64,000 nucleotides of DNA from NCBI GenBank assembly GCA_016223135.1, contig JACRPQ010000005.1:62001-126000 (forward strand), given 5' to 3'. Position 1 is the stretch's first letter. Each line of letters starts with the position of its first letter. Positions 1,157-63,590 of this stretch are shown one piece after another. A program made the translations under genes and the position numbers. This DNA is from Chloroflexota bacterium. Lineage in GTDB: Bacteria > Chloroflexota > Anaerolineae > Anaerolineales > Villigracilaceae. A model generated the notes under the pieces. The model did no database searches and was not told the DNA's origin. It saw only the letters and a list, made by a program, of their open reading frames with translations.

Positions 1157-1225
1157 TGACGATGGACAATGGACGATGGACCATTGACCATTGACCATTG
1201 ACCATTGACCATTGACTATGGACGC
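1157..1225 (+). repeat. Left arm of an inverted short-period repeat
   Basis: Starts 3 bases after the pstA stop. GACGATGGACAATGGAC leads into about five copies of the 8-base word CCATTGAC and ends TATGGAC. The matching inverted arm (CCATCGTCCACGG...) lies at 1644-1679, on the other side of the four-helix-bundle gene. The arms match as related words (GATGGAC versus GTCCATC), not as an exact inverted repeat. Confidence 0.8.
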
Positions 1226-1230
1226 GCATC

Positions 1231-1638
1231 ATGCCATATAAATTTGAGCAATTGGATGTATGGAAATTATCGCTGGAATATATTGACTCGATCTATGAGT
1301 TGGCAGAAAAATTACCGAAGAGCGAAGAGTACAACTTGAAATCACAAATTGTTCGGGCGGCAACATCCATTTCGCTGAACATTGCAGAAGGCTCAACAGG
1401 GCAATCAGATGCGGAACAGGCAAGATTTTTGGGCATGGCGATTCGCTCCCTCGTCGAAACCGTCGCCTGTCATCACATCATCCAGCGCAGAGGATATATT
1501 CGCGACGAACCCCTGCTCGCTAAAATCTATGAAGACTCCCAAGTTCTTGCCAGAAAATTACAAGCGTTTCGCAAAATTATTTCTCCCTACCAGGTTAGGG
1601 AAGAACAACTACGATATGGAGAAGACGATTTGCCCTAG
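1231..1638 (+). CDS. Four-helix-bundle protein (IVS/S23-type, Avd-like fold)
   Basis: A 135-residue protein that begins MPYKFEQLDVWKLSLEYIDSIYELAEKLPKSEEYNLKSQI and contains RAATSISLNIAEGS, both hallmarks of the four-helix-bundle family first seen in 23S rRNA intervening sequences. Known relatives include Avd of diversity-generating retroelements, which binds nucleic acid and reverse transcriptase; the cellular role of free-standing members is not established. No reverse transcriptase or template repeat is nearby. The gene is more AT-rich than the pst genes and lies inside inverted repeat arms that split the pst operon, which suggests insertion. Family assignment is firm; mobility is inferred. 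Confidence 0.88.
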   Translation: MPYKFEQLDVWKLSLEYIDSIYELAEKLPKSEEYNLKSQIVRAATSISLNIAEGSTGQSDAEQARFLGMAIRSLVETVACHHIIQRRGYIRDEPLLAKIYEDSQVLARKLQAFRKIISPYQVREEQLRYGEDDLP

Positions 1639-1643
1639 GGTTT

Positions 1644-1679
1644 CCATCGTCCACGGTCTATCGTCCATCGTCAATATGG
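1644..1679 (+). repeat. Right arm of the inverted short-period repeat
   Basis: CCATCGTCCACGG, TCTATCGTCC, ATCGTCAATATGG. Its reverse complement (CCATATTGACGATGGACGAT...) matches the start of the arm at 1157-1225, so the two arms face each other across the four-helix-bundle gene. It ends 7 bases before the pstB start, which has no Shine-Dalgarno of its own. Confidence 0.75.
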
Positions 1680-1686
1680 CTCACCC

Positions 1687-2442
1687 ATGAACAAAATCCT
1701 GATCGAATCCCTCTCCCTTCAATACTCCGACGGCACCGAGTCGCTGCGAAACGTCAGCATGGAAATTCCTGCCAACGCCATAACGGTACTATTCGGACCC
1801 GCCGGCGGCGGCAAGTCCACGCTTTTGCGCTGTCTCAACCGCCTCAACGACCTGGCGGATGTACAGGTTGTGGAGGGAAAAGTGCTTATTGACGGCGAAA
1901 ACATCCTCGCCCCCCAAACAGATGTCATTGCCCTGCGCCGCAAAGTGGGAATGGTGTTCGCGCGCCCGGTCGTCCTGCCGATGAGCATCCGCGCCAATTT
2001 GACCTACGGCTTGGAACTGGCAGGCGAAAAACGCCGCTCCAAACTGGACGAAGCAGTGGAACGCAGTTTGCGTCTCGCCGCCCTCTGGGACGAAGTCAAA
2101 GACCGCCTCGACGACCCTGCCATTGCCCTCTCCGGCGGGCAGCAGCAGCGGTTATGCCTGGCGCGTTCGCTGGCGCTTCAACCGGAAATCATCCTGCTCG
2201 ATGAACCAACATCAGGACTCGATCCCATCTCCACCGGCAAAGTCGAAGCGGCATTACAGGAACTGAAAAAAGACTACACCATCGTCCTCGTGCCGCACTC
2301 GGTACAGCAGGCAGCGCGCACCGCCGACTATGCCGCCTTCTTCCTGCAGGGCGAACTCATCGAATATGGCGAAGGAAGCGTCATCTTTACTGCTCCCAAA
2401 GAAAAACGCACGGAAGATTACATCACCGGAAGATTTGGGTAA
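1687..2442 (+). CDS. pstB: Phosphate ABC transporter ATP-binding protein PstB
   Basis: A 251-residue ABC ATPase that powers PstC/PstA-mediated phosphate import. Visible motifs: Walker A GPAGGGKST (37-45), signature LSGGQQQR (about 148-155), Walker B IILLDEP (about 169-175) followed by TSGLDP, and the switch segment PHSVQQAARTAD, in which PstB-like QQAAR is kept. CLNRLNDL after Walker A is also characteristic of PstB. The start is ATG right after a repeat arm, with no clear ribosome binding site, so an upstream insertion may have removed the native leader. Confidence 0.92.
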   Translation: MNKILIESLSLQYSDGTESLRNVSMEIPANAITVLFGPAGGGKSTLLRCLNRLNDLADVQVVEGKVLIDGENILAPQTDVIALRRKVGMVFARPVVLPMSIRANLTYGLELAGEKRRSKLDEAVERSLRLAALWDEVKDRLDDPAIALSGGQQQRLCLARSLALQPEIILLDEPTSGLDPISTGKVEAALQELKKDYTIVLVPHSVQQAARTADYAAFFLQGELIEYGEGSVIFTAPKEKRTEDYITGRFG

Positions 2443-2460
2443 AAAGGAGCAGGCTGGGCA

Positions 2461-2508
2461 AGTACACAAGTACACAGGTATACAGGTATACAGGTATACA
2501 GGTATATA
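2461..2508 (+). repeat. Short-period TACACAGGTA tract
   Basis: AGTACACA, AGTACACAGG, then repeated TATACAGG units between pstB and the arsenate reductase. The same word reappears in two orientations at 4383-4461. The two loci are 1.9 kb apart, so this word family has been copied locally. Confidence 0.75.
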
Positions 2509-4349: not shown

Positions 4350-4382
4350 GGGGGTTCCTGAAAGTAGGTTGGTAAATAGGGA

Positions 4383-4461
4383 TACACGTACACAAGTACA
4401 CAGGTAAACAGGTACACAGGTAACTTGTGTACGTGTATACGTGTGTACCTGTGTACGTGTT
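4383..4461. repeat. Palindromic TACACAGG repeat tract
   Basis: The left half iterates ACACGTACACAAG, TACACAGGTAAACAGG and TACACAGGTA. The right half (ACTTGTGTACGTGTATAC, GTGTGTACCTGTGTACG) is its approximate reverse complement, so the tract can fold into one long hairpin. It lies between pncB and the upstream hydrolase. It uses the same word as 2461-2508. Confidence 0.82.
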
Positions 4462-12831: not shown

Positions 12832-12939
12832 CGTCATTGCGAGGGTGGTCGAGTAGTGGCGCAGGGCGCCACGTATCGAGACCACCCGAAGCAACCTCAA
12901 CGAACCATCAAACAGGAGATTGCTTCGCTCGCAATGACG
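12832..12939. repeat. Nested inverted repeats between E1 and E2 genes
   Basis: The outer inverted repeat is CGTCATTGCGAG (12832-12843) / CTCGCAATGACG (12928-12939). Inside it lies a second palindromic unit (12844-12886), GGTGGTCGAGTAGTGGCGC / GCGCCACGTATCGAGACCACC. A close relative of the inner unit is read in frame within a membrane-protein gene at 50037-50096. Confidence 0.85.
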
Positions 12940-12959
12940 GATGAAAACAAGGAGACTCT

Positions 12960-14219
12960 ATGGCAACCAAAGTTCTCGTTCCCCTGCTCGGCGAAGGCGT
13001 CGAGGAAGTGACTGTCACGAAATGGCTCAAGAAGGAAGGCGACACGGTCAAAGAGTTGGAGCCTTTGCTCGAAGTGAACACCGACAAGGTGGATACCGAA
13101 ATCCCCGCGCCCGCCTCCGGGACGGTGTTGAAGATTCTCGCCCAGGAGGGCGCTCCCGCGAAGGTGGGGGCGGTACTGGCGGTGATTGGAAAGCCGGGGG
13201 AGGCAGTGGACAGCGAGCAGTCATCAGTAAAAAGCGAGTCAAAAGTCGAAAGTCAAAAATCAGAACCTGCGACCTTCGACCTGCAACCTTCGACTTCGGA
13301 CGTTCGACGTTCCACTGATCTTGGCTTTATCTCCCCCGTTGTCGCCAAAATTGCCGCTGAATATGGCGTGGATTTATCGCAGGTGAAAGGGACCGGGTTG
13401 AACGGGCGGATTACGAAGAACGATGTGCTGGGTTATGTTGAAAGTCGAAAGCGCCACCCTGAGCCAGTCGAAGGGTCGCAGGTCGAAAGTCGAATAGCGC
13501 AATCTGCAACCTTCCAACCTTCAAACCTGAAACCCATAGAGGGCGACCAACTCATCAAACATTCGACCATCCGCAAACAGATTGCCGAGCACATGGTCAT
13601 GTCCAAGCACACCTCGCCGCACGTGCTGACGGTCATGGAAGCGGACATGAGCCGCGTGGTCAAGCACCGCGCCGCCAATAAGGAAATGTTCGCGCGCGAC
13701 GGAGTCAACCTCACCTTTACGGCGTATTTCATGATGGCAATCGTGGCAGGCTTGAAGGCGTATCCGCTGGTCAATTCCTCGTGGACGGACGAAGGGCTGC
13801 TGGTTCACAAGGCAATCAACATCGGCATGGCGACCTCGCTGGGCGAGGAGGGCTTGATCGTCCCCGTCATCAAGGGCGCGGATAATCTGTCCCTGTTGGC
13901 GATGGCGCGGACTGTGAACGACCTGGCAAACCGCGCCCGCGCAAAGAAACTCCAACCCGACGAAGTCAAAGGCGGGACGTTCACGCTGACCAATCACGGC
14001 ATCAGCGGGTCGCTGTTTGCGTTCCCGGTCATCAACCAGCCGCAGTGCGGAATCCTGGGCGTCGGCGCGATGCAGAAGCGGGTTGTCGTCATAGATGACG
14101 CGATCGCCATCCGCCCGATGGTGTATCTCTCGTTTGTGTTCGATCACCGCATTTTGGACGGCGCGTCGGCGGATAACTTCTTGATGAAAGTGAAAGAGAC
14201 GCTGGAGAATTGGGCGTAG
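12960..14219 (+). CDS. 2-oxoacid dehydrogenase E2 (dihydrolipoyl acyltransferase)
   Basis: 419 residues in the standard E2 order: one lipoyl domain (1-80) with the lipoylated Lys43 in NTDKVDTEIPAPASGT, a peripheral-subunit-binding domain (about 121-157; FISPVVAKIAAEYGVDLSQVKGTGLNGRITKNDVLGYV), and the catalytic domain (about 195-419) with FDHRILDGA carrying the active-site His near residue 396. It moves the acyl group from E1 to CoA and forms the complex core. Both interdomain linkers are made of short-period repeat DNA read in frame. E3 is not in the window. AAGGAG precedes ATG. Confidence 0.92.
   Translation: MATKVLVPLLGEGVEEVTVTKWLKKEGDTVKELEPLLEVNTDKVDTEIPAPASGTVLKILAQEGAPAKVGAVLAVIGKPGEAVDSEQSSVKSESKVESQKSEPATFDLQPSTSDVRRSTDLGFISPVVAKIAAEYGVDLSQVKGTGLNGRITKNDVLGYVESRKRHPEPVEGSQVESRIAQSATFQPSNLKPIEGDQLIKHSTIRKQIAEHMVMSKHTSPHVLTVMEADMSRVVKHRAANKEMFARDGVNLTFTAYFMMAIVAGLKAYPLVNSSWTDEGLLVHKAINIGMATSLGEEGLIVPVIKGADNLSLLAMARTVNDLANRARAKKLQPDEVKGGTFTLTNHGISGSLFAFPVINQPQCGILGVGAMQKRVVVIDDAIAIRPMVYLSFVFDHRILDGASADNFLMKVKETLENWA
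13221..13314 (+). repeat. In-frame repeat tract in the first E2 linker
   Basis: AGTCAAAAGTCGAAAGTC-type words, then the inverse type (CTTCGACCTGCAACCTTCGAC). It encodes the Ser/Lys/Glu then Thr/Ser-rich linker between lipoyl and E3-binding domains (about residues 88-118). Confidence 0.8.
13438..13535 (+). repeat. In-frame repeat tract in the second E2 linker
   Basis: Starts TTGAAAGTCGAAAG, contains CACCCTGAGCCAGTCGAAGG (read as HPEPVEG), then GGTCGAAAGTCG and the inverted arm CTGCAACCTTCCAACCTTC. It encodes the linker between the E3-binding and catalytic domains (about residues 160-192). Confidence 0.8.
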
Positions 14220-22525: not shown

Positions 22526-22685
22526 AGTCTTGGAGTCTCATAGTCGCAAAGTCTGATGGTCTCATTGTCTGATGGTCTCATGTCGAAACAACGATTGCAA
22601 TGCAATCAGCGACTACTCGACTAACGACTATTTGACTAGCGACTATTCAACCAACGACTATCAGACCGACGACTATTTGACTCAC
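22526..22685. repeat. Inverted-arm short-period repeat
   Basis: The left arm iterates AGTCTGATGGTCTC-type words; the right arm iterates GACTATTTGACTAGC and CGACTATCAGACC, their approximate inverse. A small perfect palindrome, GATTGCAATGCAATC, lies at the centre. A TATAAT at 22509-22514 just before it may drive the MaoC gene, which would put the repeat in its leader. Confidence 0.82.
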
Positions 22686-22702: not shown

Positions 22703-23152
22703 ATGGGACTGTACTTTGAAGAATTCACCGTCGGGCAGAAAATCGTCACCGAAAAGCGGACGATCACCGAAGCGGACATCATGGATTTTGCGCGGCTTTC
22801 CGGCGACGACAACCGCATTCACACCGACCCGGAGTTCAGCAAGACAACGCCCTTCGGCAGGCAGATTGCGCATGGACTGCTGGGGCTGTCCATCGCTTCG
22901 GGGCTGGCATGGAAAACCGGGTTAATGGATGGAACCGTCATTGCCTTCCGCGAAGTGAAGGAGTGGAAGTTCGTCAAACCGGTCTTCATCGGCGATACCC
23001 TGCATGCCGAACTGGAAACCATCGAAACCAAAGCCCTGCCGCGCATCGGCGGCGGTTCGGTGACCATCAACATCGAAGTGAAAAATCAAAACGATGAAGT
23101 CTGTCACCGCGGCACGTGGGTCGTGCTGATTATGAGCAAACCACAGGCATAA
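22703..23152 (+). CDS. MaoC-family (R)-specific enoyl-CoA hydratase-like protein
   Basis: 149 residues, single hot-dog fold. The hydratase-2 motif is complete: FARLSGDDNRIHTDPEFSKTTPFGRQIAHGLL, with the catalytic Asp and His in DxNRIHxD. Such proteins hydrate (R)-trans-enoyl-CoA or dehydrate 3-hydroxyacyl-CoA. No fatty-acid genes adjoin, so the pathway is open. AGGAGA precedes ATG. A second MaoC protein is found at 40954-41364 in the polysaccharide locus; the two are only distantly similar. Confidence 0.88.
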   Translation: MGLYFEEFTVGQKIVTEKRTITEADIMDFARLSGDDNRIHTDPEFSKTTPFGRQIAHGLLGLSIASGLAWKTGLMDGTVIAFREVKEWKFVKPVFIGDTLHAELETIETKALPRIGGGSVTINIEVKNQNDEVCHRGTWVVLIMSKPQA

Positions 23153-23192
23153 TTACCAATCACCACTTACCACTTACCAATCACCAATGACC
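23153..23192 (+). repeat. Short-period ACCAATCACC tract
   Basis: TTACCAATCACCACTTACC, ACTTACCAATCACC, then AATGACC. The ATG of the PBP gene is part of the last unit. Confidence 0.75.
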
Positions 23193-26100
23193 AACGACGA
23201 AGAACGCGCAAAACGCATCAAACGACTGCTGGACTCGGAAGCCGAAACGCGGGCGGAGCCTCCCTTTGAGCCGGATCAGGACGAAGCCTCTCAGGAAGGA
23301 ACCACACGAGCCAGCGCCCCGCGCCCCACGCCGACTCCTCCGCCTCCCATCGCGCTGGACAAAGACAACATGCCCTTGCCGCGCCGCGTGGACCAGGTGG
23401 ACTTGGGCAGCACCCGCGTCTCGCCTGCCGCCTACGAACCAGCCAGCCGCCCTGTCAACGGCATTTCACAGCCTCGCAGCGCCTCCACGCCGCGCCCCAG
23501 CCAGCCGCCTCCCATCCGCCCAACCATTTCGCTGAACTGGCTGGGAGGTTCGTGGGGTTGTCTGCTGCGGGCGTTCATCTTTTCCCTGTTTGGACTCGTC
23601 GTCCTTGCCATCATTGGCGCGTCGGCGTTGATGATCACCTACTACCGCATCGCCCGCACCCTCCCCAGCGTGGACGACCTCCGCAACCGCGCCTCGCAAT
23701 TCGAGACCACCCGCATCCTTGACCGTTACGGCAACCCGCTCTACGAAATTCTCGACCCCAACGCCGGACGCCGCACCTACGTCCCCCTCGACAAAATCTC
23801 CCCGGCGCTCGTCGCAGCGACGATAGCCACCGAAGACCAGGACTTCTACACCCACCCCGGCTTCGACCCGCTGGCAATCCTGCGCGCCCTGTGGGTCAAC
23901 TATCGCACCGGCGGCGAAGGCGGAGGCGCCTCCACCATCACCCAGCAGTTGGCGCGTGCGCTCCTGCTTTCCCCCGAGGAACGCGCCCAGCGGACGTATC
24001 AGCGCAAGGCGCGTGAAATCATCCTCGCTGCCGAAATCACCCGCCGCTACTCCAAAGACGAAATCCTCGAACTCTACCTGAACGAAATCTACTACGGCAA
24101 CCTTGCCTACGGCATCGAAGCCGCCGCCGAAACCTACTTCGGCAAGACCGCCAACCAACTCACTCTGGCAGAAGCCTCCCTCCTGGCGGGTCTTCCCCAA
24201 TCCCCCGCAGTCTATGACATCTACACCAACCGCGACGTGACCCTGCGCCGCCAGCAGCAAGTGCTTGTTCTAATGTATGAATTGAGCCAACAGCGAGGCT
24301 GCATCGAAGTCAGCAACAGCGAGACGCCCATTTGCGTGGACGCCCAGACCATCCTCAACGCCGCCGACGAAATGAAAGCCCGCACCTTCGCCGCCCCCAA
24401 CATTGACGCCCGCTACCCGCACTGGGTCAACTTCGTCCGCTCGCAGTTGGAAACGCAATACGACGCGCAAACCATCTACCGCTCCGGCTTCATCGTTTAC
24501 ACCACCCTCGACCCCAACTTGCAGAACGAGGCGCAGCGCCTGGTCACCGAACAGGTGGCGGCGCTTGCCGACAAAAACGCCCGCAACGGCGCATTAGTCG
24601 CCATCAAACCCTCCACCGGCGAAATCCTCGCCATGGTCGGCTCGCCCGATTTCAACAACGCCGCCATCTCCGGGCAGGTCAACATGGCGACCAGCTCCAC
24701 GCGCCAGCCGGGCTCCTCCATCAAACCCATCACCTACCTCGCCGCCTTTGAAAAAGGCTGGACCCCCGCCACCTGGATATGGGACGTCCCCACCGAATTC
24801 CCCGATGGCGCCAACCCGCCTTACGTCCCCAAAAACTACGACGACAAATTTCACGGCGGCATGACCGTCCGCACGGCGCTGGCAAATTCCTTCAACATTC
24901 CCGCCGTCAAAGCGCTGCAATTCGTCGGCGTCTATGACGACCCGAACACCCCCGAAAAAGACGGCATGATTGCCATGGCAGAACGCCTGGGCATCACCAG
25001 CCTGACCCGCCCCGACTACGGTCTCGCGCTGACGCTGGGCGGCGGCGAAGTCAGCCTGCTCGAGATGACCTCCGCCTTCTCCGTCTTCGCCAACGGCGGC
25101 AAAAAAGTTCCTCCCGTTGCCATTTTGAAAATTGTGGACTTCGAGGGCAACGTCATCTATGAATACCAGCCGCCCGAAGGCGAACAAGTCATTCGCCCTG
25201 AACATGCCTTCCTCATCTCCTCCATCCTCTCCGATAACGAAGCCCGCTCGTGGATGTTCGGGCGTAACTCTGTCCTCAACCTGCCCTTCCCCGCCGCCGC
25301 CAAAACCGGCACCACCAACGACTTCCGCGACAACTGGACAATGGGCTACACCCCCGACCTTGCAGCCGGCGTGTGGGTGGGTAACGCCGACTACACCCCC
25401 ATGGTAAACACCACCGGCTTGAGCGGCGCCGCGCCCATCTGGTCGCAGTTCATGCAGTTCGCCGTGCCTTATGTGACGGGCAACAACCCGCGCCCCTTCG
25501 CCATTCCGCCCGGCATCACCGAACACATCATCTGCAACCTCTCCGGCGCCGAACCTTCGCAATGGTGCCGCGGCGGTCAGCGCAGCGAATTCTTCGCCAG
25601 CGACCAGCCTCCGCTTCCCCGCAGCCAGGACCTCCTCACCAAAACCACCATAGATACTTGGACCGGTCTCATCGCCGGCGACGCCTGCACCGACTACGCC
25701 AAAGAAGAAATGGTCATGAACGTGACCGACGAATGGGCGCGCAAATGGTTCAAGACGCCCGACGGACGCGCCTGGCTCGAAACGCACGACTTCCCCCGCA
25801 ACCCCTTCTTCAAACCCGAACGCGAATGTAGCGCCGACGACCCGCGCCCCATCCTGCAATTTGCCAACCTGCGCGAAAACCAGACCATCACCGAAACCTT
25901 GCTCGAAATTCGCGCCGTCATCAACGTCACCAAAGGCGACTTTACCGGCTGGCGGCTCGAATACGGCCGCGGCGACGACCCCGCCGAGTGGACGCTCCTC
26001 GCCGAAGGACGCAACAAATACGAACAGCCCGACATCATCTATACCTGGGACTTGCAGGAAGTCAAAGAAAGCCGCATCACCCTGCGCCTCTACCTCATGA

Positions 26101-28146: not shown

Positions 28147-28665
28147 TTAATCGCGGAGCGAGTTGGGGAAGGAGTGCTGGTCGCCCTGTTCCATGATCTT
28201 TTTGCGGAAAGCCTCCTGCACAAAGGGCGGCACCATGCTGGAGACGTCGCCATTCAACATGGCAATTTCACGCACCGTAGTGGATGAAAGGAAGGTGTGT
28301 TCCTCGGCGGTGATGAGCGCCACAATTTCGATGTCGGGGGCGAGGCGATGATTCGCCAGCGCCATGCGAAACTCGAACTCAAAATCCGAAAATACGCGCA
28401 GCCCCCGCACGATGACCTGCGCGCCAATCTTACGGGCGTATTCCACCGTCAAGCCGCTGTAGCCGGCAACCTTGATTTTGGGGTTATCTTTGAACGCTTC
28501 GGCGACCAGCGCCATGCGTTCTTCCGGCGAGAACATCAGGGTTTTCAGCGGCTTGTCGTACACCGCCATAACCACTTCATCGAAAAGACGCGAGGCGCGC
28601 TCGGCAATATCCATGTGTCCGTAGTGGATGGGGTCGAACGTGCCGGGAAACAAGGCTCTGACCAT
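28147..28665 (-). CDS. coaD: Phosphopantetheine adenylyltransferase
   Basis: 172 residues, penultimate step of CoA synthesis: 4'-phosphopantetheine + ATP to dephospho-CoA. Motifs: GTFDPIHYGHMDI (T/HxGH nucleotide site, 8-20), VRGLRVFSDFEFEFRMALANHRLAPDIE and FLSSTTVRE (the SSTxVR nucleotide-binding element). Usual length about 160. It lies 36 bases after recG with a short repeat between them. Confidence 0.95.
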   Translation of the reverse strand: MVRALFPGTFDPIHYGHMDIAERASRLFDEVVMAVYDKPLKTLMFSPEERMALVAEAFKDNPKIKVAGYSGLTVEYARKIGAQVIVRGLRVFSDFEFEFRMALANHRLAPDIEIVALITAEEHTFLSSTTVREIAMLNGDVSSMVPPFVQEAFRKKIMEQGDQHSFPNSLRD

Positions 28666-28700
28666 GTAGTCTGATAGTCTCCAGTCTGATAGTCGGATAG
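28666..28700 (+). repeat. Short GTCTGATAGTC tract between recG and coaD
   Basis: GTAGTCTGATAGTCTCC then AGTCTGATAGTCGG: two and a half imperfect units of the word family seen at 22526-22685. It occupies the coaD 5' leader. Confidence 0.7.
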
Positions 28701-28701
28701 G

Positions 28702-51272: not shown

Positions 51273-52385
51273 TTACGCAAGAAGTCCCGCCAATATCTTT
51301 TCCGCCCGCGCCAGCCAGGTATAGCCCTGCACATCCTGCCTCGCTTGTTCCCCCAGTGACCGCCTGCGCGGCTCGTCGGCGAGCAGCCGCTCAATTTCCA
51401 CTTTCCATTTTCCAACCTCATCCGGCTCACAGAAGACTGCGTTCCTCTCGTTCAGCACTTCGCGGATCACCGGTAAATCAGCGGTGACAATCGCCCGTCC
51501 CGCCGCCATGTATTCGAACATCTTCATCGGGCTGGCGACGCTGGCGGAGTCCGCGCTTCCGCTGGAGCCCATGATGGAGCGGCTGTAAGGCATGAGGAGA
51601 ATATCGGCAGCGGCTTGGTAGAGCGGCAGGTCATGATTGGGGATGAAGCCGGTGAAAGTGACGTTGTTCGATTCGGCGCGCGCTTTCCACGCTTCCACGT
51701 CTGCGGGGCGTCCGCCGACCCAAACGAAGTGCGCCTGCGGCAGTTCCTTTGCCAGCGCGAGGAACAGGTCTGCGCCGCGGCCCGCGTAGAGGTGACCGGT
51801 GCACATCACGGTTGGGGCGGGGGGAAGGTTCAGGGTGCGGCGCGCAGTGACCGGGTCCGGTAATGAGGCGAAGCGTTCCAGTTCCACGCCGTTCGGAGCG
51901 ATGACCACCTCGTCCGCGTGGAAGCGGATGTTGTGGCGGCGTTCGAGCAGGTCCACCAATGCCCGCGTAATGGAAGCGAGGCGTTTGCGTCCGCGCAAGG
52001 CGGCGAAGGCGCGGTGCCAGGCGGGACCCAGCGCGCCGGTCGGTTGGAGGTGAATTTCAAAGACGGTGGGAATGTGGAAGAGCAAACCGAAGACCGCCGA
52101 TTGCGGGAACCAGGTGTAGAGCAGGTCGGCGCTGAGGGCGCGGGCGCGTTGAACAGCCTGCCAGGTGAACAGGCGGCGGCTGGGCGAGGCGAGCCATTCG
52201 ATGGGGAAATCAGTCTGAAGTCCGTAATGGGATTTTAGATTTACGATTTCAGATTTACGATTGCCCGGCACAAGCAGGGTCACGTCGTGACCAAGTTGAA
52301 CGAGGGCAGAGCATGCCTTCATGACTTGGATGCTGTTGGCGGTGTCGGAGGGGATTTGGGAGCCGGCGATAGCGGCGATTTTCAT
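51273..52385 (-). CDS. Glycosyltransferase family 4
   Basis: 370 residues of the GT-B fold. IAAIAGSQIPSDTANSIQVMKACSALVQLGHDVTLL at the start; donor-site region ADILLMPYSRSIMGSSGSADSASVASPMKMFEYMAAGRAIVTADLP, with the EX7E-type Glu. Residues SEIVNLKSHYGLQ (about 41-53) are encoded by an AGATTTACGATTTC repeat, an in-frame insertion near the N-domain. The start ATG overlaps the flippase stop (ATGA). Confidence 0.92.
   Translation of the reverse strand: MKIAAIAGSQIPSDTANSIQVMKACSALVQLGHDVTLLVPGNRKSEIVNLKSHYGLQTDFPIEWLASPSRRLFTWQAVQRARALSADLLYTWFPQSAVFGLLFHIPTVFEIHLQPTGALGPAWHRAFAALRGRKRLASITRALVDLLERRHNIRFHADEVVIAPNGVELERFASLPDPVTARRTLNLPPAPTVMCTGHLYAGRGADLFLALAKELPQAHFVWVGGRPADVEAWKARAESNNVTFTGFIPNHDLPLYQAAADILLMPYSRSIMGSSGSADSASVASPMKMFEYMAAGRAIVTADLPVIREVLNERNAVFCEPDEVGKWKVEIERLLADEPRRRSLGEQARQDVQGYTWLARAEKILAGLLA
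52231..52264 (+). repeat. Repeat within the GT4 gene
   Basis: GATTTTAGATTTACGATTTC then AGATTTACGATT. Two units, one orientation, inside coding sequence and in frame. Confidence 0.65.
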
Positions 52386-53739: not shown

Positions 53740-53797
53740 AATCACCAATTGCCAATCACCAATCACCCAATGAGGGTAAATGGTAATTGGTAACTGA
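53740..53797. repeat. Inverted-arm short-period repeat
   Basis: The left arm repeats ATCACCAATTGCC; the right arm (GGGTAAATGGTAATTGGTAAC) is its approximate inverse around a short centre AATG. It lies between the epimerase stop and the flippase start. Confidence 0.82.
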
Positions 53798-63503: not shown

Positions 63504-63590
63504 AACTACCAATTGCTCCCTGCTTACCGCTTACTGACCACTGATCACTGATCACTGCTTACTGATCACTATTCACCGATCACCACCATT
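63504..63590. repeat. Short-period GATCACTGATCACTGCTTAC tract
   Basis: Words of type CTGATCACTGATCACTGC and TTACCGCTTACTG. Lies between the subtilase start and the YczE-like stop. It extends an open frame upstream of the subtilase. Confidence 0.75.

Follow-up and report, generated by a model that had tools for sequence, protein, structure and literature searches.

An IVP/S23 gene between inverted short-word arrays in a Chloroflexota pst operon, and similar arrays around IVP genes of many phyla

The insert between pstA and pstB

The window, which is the whole stretch of 64,000 nucleotides analysed here, carries pstA and pstB near its start, and between them lies a gene of the IVP/S23 family enclosed by two arrays of a short word (Table 1). 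Profile search assigns the product to Pfam 23S_rRNA_IVP (PF05635) with 98.5 bits (cut-off 33.8) and to TIGR02436 with 99.5 bits, and its sequence matches PDB entry 2gsc with an E value of 2.4e-15. The gene is AT-richer than its neighbors, with a GC content of 0.45 versus 0.60 in pstA and 0.57 in pstB. An AlphaFold model based on an alignment of 26 sequences predicts a helix bundle (mean pLDDT 92.4), and this model matches the S23 structures 2gsc (TM 0.82/0.95) and 2rld. Its match to the DGR protein Avd is weaker (4dwl, TM 0.70/0.86, E 0.14); the Avd structures 4dwl and 8ube compared with the model give TM of about 0.70/0.85 at E 0.14, and the sequence identity to Avd is 8–11%. Structures of the S23/IVP protein family have been solved, and to our knowledge neither a function nor a catalytic site is known for it. 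Because dN among the three IVPs found at this site is 0.175–0.203 while dS is 2.6 or saturated, the protein is under purifying selection.

The left arm was called by TRF at 1157-1216 with a period of 7, 8.6 copies and 90% matches. The right arm, which begins 4 nt past the IVP stop codon, was called at 1643-1672 with 4.3 copies of the same period and 73% matches. The two arms are inverted relative to each other, with a best pairing of 33 nt at 79% complementarity, and the cis score of the locus is 16.0, where pairings between different loci, taken over 58 IVP loci, have their 99th percentile at 15.0. In the predicted fold of the insert the left arm pairs partly with the right arm and partly with itself (z -2.0; 4 of 100 shuffles equally good). 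A preliminary description of this DNA had reported an AT-richer, IVS/Avd-like gene that splits pstA from pstB within inverted short-period arms. Our profile matches, base composition and period-7 arrays bear this out, and the coordinates that it gave are correct.

Table 1. Features of the pst insert and word arrays elsewhere in the window. Paired scores give the best match among IVP arms from the own genome or order, then the best match among distant-phylum arms.
Position	Strand	Feature	Evidence or score
279..1154	+	pstA (phosphate ABC permease), upstream flank	TIGR00974, 285.6 bits (cut-off 193.45)
1157..1223	.	Left arm, period-7 word array of GACNATN type (GATGGAC/CCATTGAC)	TRF, repeat finder, cis complementarity with right arm
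1231..1638	+	IVP/S23 four-helix-bundle protein gene, 135 aa, between arms	PF05635 and TIGR02436
1643..1675	.	Right arm, inverted word array	Inverted repeats I1-I8; TRF 1643-1672, period 7
1687..2442	+	pstB, downstream flank	TIGR00972, 337.3 bits, slightly under cut-off 343.2
2459..2506	.	Gene-less array, word GTAnACAR (IVP clade L038)	38.0 (L038 arm) vs 13.0
4371..4460	.	Gene-less hairpin, word GTAnACAR	4384-4460: 41.5 vs 11.0
13237..13532	.	Word arrays (GTCGAAA, CAACCTTC types) in both linkers of the 2-oxoacid dehydrogenase acyltransferase (E2) gene	
22526..22683	.	Gene-less hairpin, words AGTCTGAT / CGACTAT	Right half: 20.5 vs 10.5
23151..23206	.	Gene-less array, word AATTACC, as at own-genome IVP locus L004	18.5 vs 11.0
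28665..28701	.	Short gene-less array, word TAGTCTGA	10.5 vs 10.5 (tie; weakest)
52231..52262	.	Array, word GATTTACG, within glycosyltransferase reading frame	25.0 vs 12.0
53740..53793	.	Gene-less hairpin AATCACC / GGTAAAT	19.0 vs 11.0
63514..63584	.	Gene-less array, word ACTGATC (IVP group D)	29.0 vs 13.5

The presence of the insert in the genus is patchy. Sixteen pstA-pstB junctions were read, with G010 (no pstA match at the threshold) and G013 (contig ends) left out, and an IVP gene with the same words was found in three of them: the own genome (G000), G009 and G014. A midpoint-rooted tree built from PstA, PstB and the catalytic domain of E2 does not place these genomes as sisters. A fourth genome, G016, possesses at the same place a gene-less hairpin of the same words, the left end of which is identical to that of G009 in 35 of 42 positions, including the last pstA codon. 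The sister of the own genome, G008, has an unrelated spacer of 62 nt, G005 has no spacer as read, and the remaining ten junctions contain other spacers, most of them with another hairpin or word array as judged by eye. Element-free sites are thus found in close relatives, at the pst junction in G008 and G005 and after pstB in G001, and arrays neighboring the pst element turn over fast between relatives, as the differences in G001 and G008 illustrate. The layout had been read in the preliminary description as that of an inserted element, a reading that would have been refuted if the gene were common to all relatives and no empty site existed, and it withstands this comparison. Of the two traces of insertion named there, the empty site is present, whereas a target-site duplication is visible neither at the pst site nor after pstB in the junctions and alignments with relatives, where the spacers have turned over.

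Arms and words around IVP genes

There are 10 IVP genes in the own genome, and arrays with different words surround nearly all of them; at 9 of the 10 loci the upstream-downstream complementarity score is at least 12, the exception being L007. Words are alike within one locus and different between most loci. Among 58 IVP loci of the own genome and its relatives (L027, a copy of L001, and L044, with a short flank, were left out), the same-locus score lies above the 99th percentile of cross-locus scores in 30 and above the 95th in 41. At a score of 12, arms were found at 41 of 56 IVP genes versus 6 of 186 control ORFs in the same sequences (Fisher p 2.5e-27; own genome and relatives, without L003, L027 and short-flank loci). 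A wider set was composed of the best 80 loci of a longer list, obtained by scanning species genomes of many phyla, and 28 loci of the window's phylum. In this set, from which 4 of 116 IVP ORFs with short flanks were left out, arms at the same score accompany 70 of 112 IVP genes versus 10 of 269 control ORFs and 3.6% of cross-locus pairs. Arms are therefore far commoner at IVP genes than at other genes, and the proposal of an element escapes a second possible refutation, namely that such arms might flank IVP genes no more often than any other gene.

The architecture is spread over many phyla. IVP genes occur in 50 of 151 genomes of the window's phylum, and among the best 80 loci of the longer list, 49 of the 76 that are not titled Chloroflexi have arms at score 12. 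After clustering of loci that share a flank or 70% identity, with a single locus kept for each cluster, inverted arms remain in 54 of 85. For all 210 IVP loci (216 less 6 with short flanks), inverted arms were observed in 139 and direct ones in 29, some loci having both, and 71 lack inverted arms at score 12. The best period among 98 arms is 7 in 69 and 8 in 19, and the downstream arm starts at a median of 9.5 nt past the stop codon.

Some loci depart from this pattern. L011-L014 (in G014, G012, G011 and G015) form a conserved group in which the IVP gene always has the same gene downstream and no arms are detected; this member may have a function for the host. A long direct repeat (direct score 128.5) encloses the gene at L109, unlike at other loci. 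A cyanobacterial sample comprised six IVP loci out of 26 plasmid records matched. Clear inverted arms are found in three of the six (Nostoc edaphicum, Nostoc sp. ATCC 53789 and Calothrix brevissima), with the words GTAGGGA, GGGAAAA and GGGTGTA, and two further loci score 9 and 11. These plasmid IVP genes also split host gene pairs: in Nostoc edaphicum plasmid pNe_5 (L287) the gene lies between those for ribonucleotide reductase beta and alpha, in opposite orientation and with inverted GTAGGGA arms, and in Pseudanabaena galeata plasmid pPg_01 (L286) it separates cas6 from cas4, and its AAAAGCY arrays are highly regular and direct, not inverted.

Word sharing between IVP genes at unrelated loci rises with the similarity of the proteins. 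Non-orthologous pairs have the same word in 1% of 1857 cases at 40–50% identity, 11% of 533 at 50–60%, 26% of 77 at 60–70%, 43% of 7 at 70–80% and 3 of 3 above 80%. The nearest non-orthologous IVP carries the same word in 25.4% of 142 cases versus 1.7% of random non-orthologous pairs, and this fraction is 41% of 46 at 60–70% identity and 61% of 18 at 70% or more. Between the window's phylum and others, a word is common to 6 of 14 pairs with at least 60% identity, 9 of 29 at 55–60% and 33 of 2623 below 45%; the first of these counts leaves out scan loci titled Chloroflexi and becomes 8 of 19 with them. The between-phyla case rests mainly on one word, because all six pairs use CAGCTATC. Its carriers are Methylobacillus (L098), a deltaproteobacterium (L110), Bacteroidales (L126 and L140) and, in the window's phylum, L015 and L190; Geothrix (L114) also has it, at 55–56% identity.

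Hairpins of one word keep one polarity, 26 versus 1 in the fetched sequences (overlapping loci not removed), and polarity is constant in 20 of 20 close pairs, counted by eye among part of the GTAnACAR and pst-word matches (sign test p 1.9e-6). The sole exception among the 27 carries the word of the window hairpin at 53740, which is itself of opposite polarity to the IVP arms with its word.

Gene-less arrays in the window and across genomes

Eleven hand-picked arrays of the window were scored against the IVP arms of 58 loci of the own genome and order and of 49 loci of distant phyla. For nine the best match lies in the own genome or order, one ties and one is matched better by a distant-phylum arm; unit-shuffled versions of the arrays reach the real score in 0–4 of 15 trials. 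The case that speaks against an own-order reading is the left half of the hairpin at 22526-22683 (13.5 versus 15.5). Comparison with relatives shows an absence at one site, where G001 lacks the array found after pstB (2459-2506), and a partial conservation at another, the site of 4371-4460, where G008 and G007 have the same word family and G001 a different sequence. G008 has an extra GATTTTA array (at 23142) near the site of 23151-23206. The preliminary description had noted a similar architecture without the gene elsewhere in the window, and it was seen at all the array and hairpin positions of Table 1 from 2459 to 63514. The suggestion made there, that these might be gene-less derivatives, gains support from the words shared with IVP arms and from word counts over whole genomes, which track the IVP clade in part.

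Word arrays are also found inside reading frames. The linkers of the E2 gene are coding sequence built from word repeats; the arrays are in-frame and the words vary by species, with GTCGAAA types in many and ATAGACC hairpins in G009, G013 and G016. The array in the glycosyltransferase frame keeps its place in the sister G008 (L323; at 52225) with the word partly changed. Upstream of the E2 gene, at 12832-12940, lies a hairpin of another kind (CGTCATTGCGAG ... CTCGCAATGACG) that encloses a second one; this nested structure has relatives, as judged by eye, in the pst spacers of G003 and G006.

Dispersed words and IVP clades co-occur across genomes. Three units of GTANACAR match 220 times in the own genome (3.8 Mb), counting matches that overlap within arrays, which is the highest number of 31 genomes; the word is present in 15 of the 31, and the backwards pattern gives no matches. 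Its cognate IVP clade (L038) is found in seven of the 31 genomes, all of which carry the word (16–132 matches), and outside the genus the only one of 13 genomes with the clade, G023, is also the only one with the word (Mann-Whitney p 1.4e-4 for counts over 31 genomes). The cognate IVP was not found in the own genome despite its 220 matches, and G008, G001, G009 and G012 likewise have 15–44 matches and no cognate IVP. For the own genome, either the gene was lost or the link between word and IVP is looser than proposed.

The result for the pst word is weaker (p 0.0056). Six genomes with a pst-clade IVP (at least 56% identity) have 12, 30, 96, 58, 33 and 0 matches, and 7 of the 12 in the own genome are the pst arm itself, whereas G012, G013 and G005 have 34, 29 and 26 matches without such an IVP. 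Outside the genus, G019, which belongs to another family and has an IVP 60% identical, shows 33 matches and the other 12 genomes 0–3; G023 has none despite an IVP of 56% identity, the arms of which carry another word. The clade limits (53% and 56% identity) were taken from the hit lists and not set beforehand. Non-cognate word and clade pairs also correlate (p 0.009 and 0.021), so the trans signal partly reflects general richness and shared ancestry within the genus. The word of L168 (Proteiniphilum) gives 59 matches in its own genome and 0–3 in the 17 others of 18 searched; the backwards-pattern control is not independent in this case (108 matches in the same genome), since CAAGAAC arrays fit the reversed pattern too. 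Array density was set aside as evidence: at score 16, IVP-rich genomes have 5 arrays per 380 kb and IVP-less ones 1 per 364 kb, which is too weak (p 0.22), and at score 12 the IVP-less genomes have 6 arrays versus 13.

Origin and spread of the elements

We consider it probable that the pst insert is a gene-carrying copy in a family of short-period-arm elements that work in a REPtron-like manner, with an IVP matched to the word and gene-less copies dispersed. A REPtron-like working is proposed because gene-less copies with the same word are scattered through the genome. Each element would consist of an arm, an IVP gene and an arm, the arms being two inverted arrays of a 7-8-nt word. The IVP may recognize its own word, probably in the form of a stem or of a folded single strand, a step that is inferred from covariation without any binding data. 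It might then promote copying of the hairpin into new sites and keep both arms alike, and copying could proceed via host replication (template switching at hairpins) or with a helper such as Y1 transposases. Loss of the ORF would leave a gene-less hairpin, as is inferred for G016, and the arms may additionally let an operon tolerate the insert, like the stems of the rRNA IVS. Among routes of copying, replication-linked template switching is favored because no catalytic site is known to us in IVP, a reverse transcriptase match is missing in four IVP-rich genomes, Y1 transposases are found in all 31 genomes and no target duplications were seen; with IVP as a binding or annealing factor, this route remains a doubtful suggestion. 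Y1 transposase was also considered as a specific partner, and matches in 31 of 31 genomes make it uninformative. No movement of an element was observed in the compared genomes. Mobility of the elements, nucleic-acid binding by IVP and independence from any other protein are inferences.

In a REPtron, a gene is flanked by inverted repeats, gene-less repeats are dispersed, and the repeat is matched to the protein. REPtrons are formed by TnpA_REP/RAYT with REP repeats, according to the accessible part of PMC8266576. The likeness is that an IVP gene is flanked by inverted copies of its own repeat, by analogy since these are word arrays and not REPs, and that gene-less copies of the same repeat are dispersed. 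The differences are that IVP is a PF05635 four-helix bundle (2gsc fold) and not a HuH Y1 transposase, and that IVP elements carry tandem words while REPtron repeats are tagged palindromes. As for transposons of IS/MITE type, element-free sites in close relatives are met with, whereas no target-site duplication is visible and the spacers have turned over.

A closer precedent for the protein is the 23S rRNA IVS with an S23p/IVP ORF between terminal inverted repeats, which is called a selfish genetic element in the available portion of a Coxiella IVS paper (PMC4990558); there its mobility is discussed as a hypothesis, and the ORF is not universal and is found in a few bacteria. The pst element shares with it the S23p/IVP ORF and stem-forming inverted ends, which pair partially in the predicted fold. 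It differs in lying between pstA and pstB and not in a 23S rRNA helix, and IVP elements in general stand in operons and spacers, have arms made of 7-8-nt word arrays, and have dispersed gene-less copies.

Other explanations of the arms are conceivable. The one that survives best, though we judge it unlikely, is that a host mutational process (slippage and template switching at quasi-palindromes) makes the arms and arrays, and IVP genes sit passively in permissive spacers. Arrays do occur in neutral places, including coding linkers, and turn over unit by unit between close species; weak arrays are seen by eye in the E2 linkers of G003, which has no IVP match (87% complete), and two words are common in some genomes without a cognate IVP. 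However, such a process should yield both polarities and the observed polarity is nearly invariant, arms are rare at the control ORFs of the same sequences, and words track IVP identity at unrelated loci. A local mutational origin is thus disfavored, and not excluded.

The arms might instead form an mRNA hairpin that shields the IVP message or excises it from the pst transcript through RNase III, as in the rRNA IVS; the operon would then tolerate the insert, with no mobility at present. The predicted partial pairing of the arms would suit such a stem, and RNase III cuts the rRNA IVS in its stem, as stated in the part of PMC4990558 at hand, but dispersed gene-less copies and the association of word with clade are left unexplained. 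As a complete account we regard this as quite unlikely; it may be compatible with the REPtron-like reading. It seems still more improbable that word arrays were there first and an IVP unit homes into them, the word being its target and not its own ends. Copies of the word are more numerous than IVP genes (in the own genome, one word has 220 overlapping three-unit matches and there are 10 genes) and strong direct repeats occur at some IVP loci, yet insertion into a single array predicts direct halves, and inverted ones are far commoner. Least credible of all is a retroelement in which reverse transcriptase and an Avd-like IVP copy hairpin RNA: IVP shares the Avd fold (4dwl, 8ube) and 17 of 31 relatives have an RVT_1 match, but the draft genomes G000, G010, G016 and G020, with 7–16 IVP genes each, have no RVT_1 match (E 0.001). 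This route was demoted on that account, and copying probably does not require a reverse transcriptase resident in the genome.

The arms also resemble heptamer repeats described in other bacteria. In Xanthomonas such repeats often form inverted pairs, with 70 (Xcc) and 75 (Xac) convergent inverted pairs of GGGAATC, their role is not known and no association with mobile elements was found, and the GGGGA(C/T)T repeats of Nostoc PCC 7120 form only a few inverted pairs, as far as the accessible text of PMC4692102 goes. The STRR of cyanobacteria are 7 bp long and hairpin-forming, with no known function in the consulted part of PMC2670836, and the TAACTGA sets of Beggiatoaceae are direct with one inverted exception in that of PMC4679880. 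Like IVP arms, these are mostly intergenic tandem words of 7 nt, and IVP arms share hairpin formation with the STRR and Xanthomonas repeats; they differ in being mostly inverted, which the Nostoc PCC 7120 and TAACTGA sets rarely are. The term S23 is absent from the main text of PMC4692102 and PMC4679880, and no link between S23/IVP genes and flanking word repeats was found in open-access PMC titles and the openings of abstracts. The pairing is new as far as the open-access literature tells, and a subscription paper could have it.

Taken together, the REPtron-like reading suggests an undescribed kind of selfish or mobile DNA, for which movement and binding have not been demonstrated. More tentatively, and at a strength on which we would not yet rely, IVP/S23 proteins could be nucleic-acid-binding factors, each specific to its word, that give rise to hairpins of short tandem words and spread them. 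Many phyla would then possess a class of mobile repeat systems without a transposase. This would explain the origin of the heptamer repeats of cyanobacteria (STRR) and Xanthomonas as well as the function of S23, with the rRNA IVS as a special case. The S23/IVP family and the short tandem word repeats of bacterial spacers are two unexplained things that may be one, and for heptamer-rich genomes a simple check is to look at the flanks of the S23 gene. If IVP reads its own word, the two would be a protein-repeat pair that spreads without a recognized recombinase or reverse transcriptase, and the many natural pairs of protein and word would provide material for working out the recognition.
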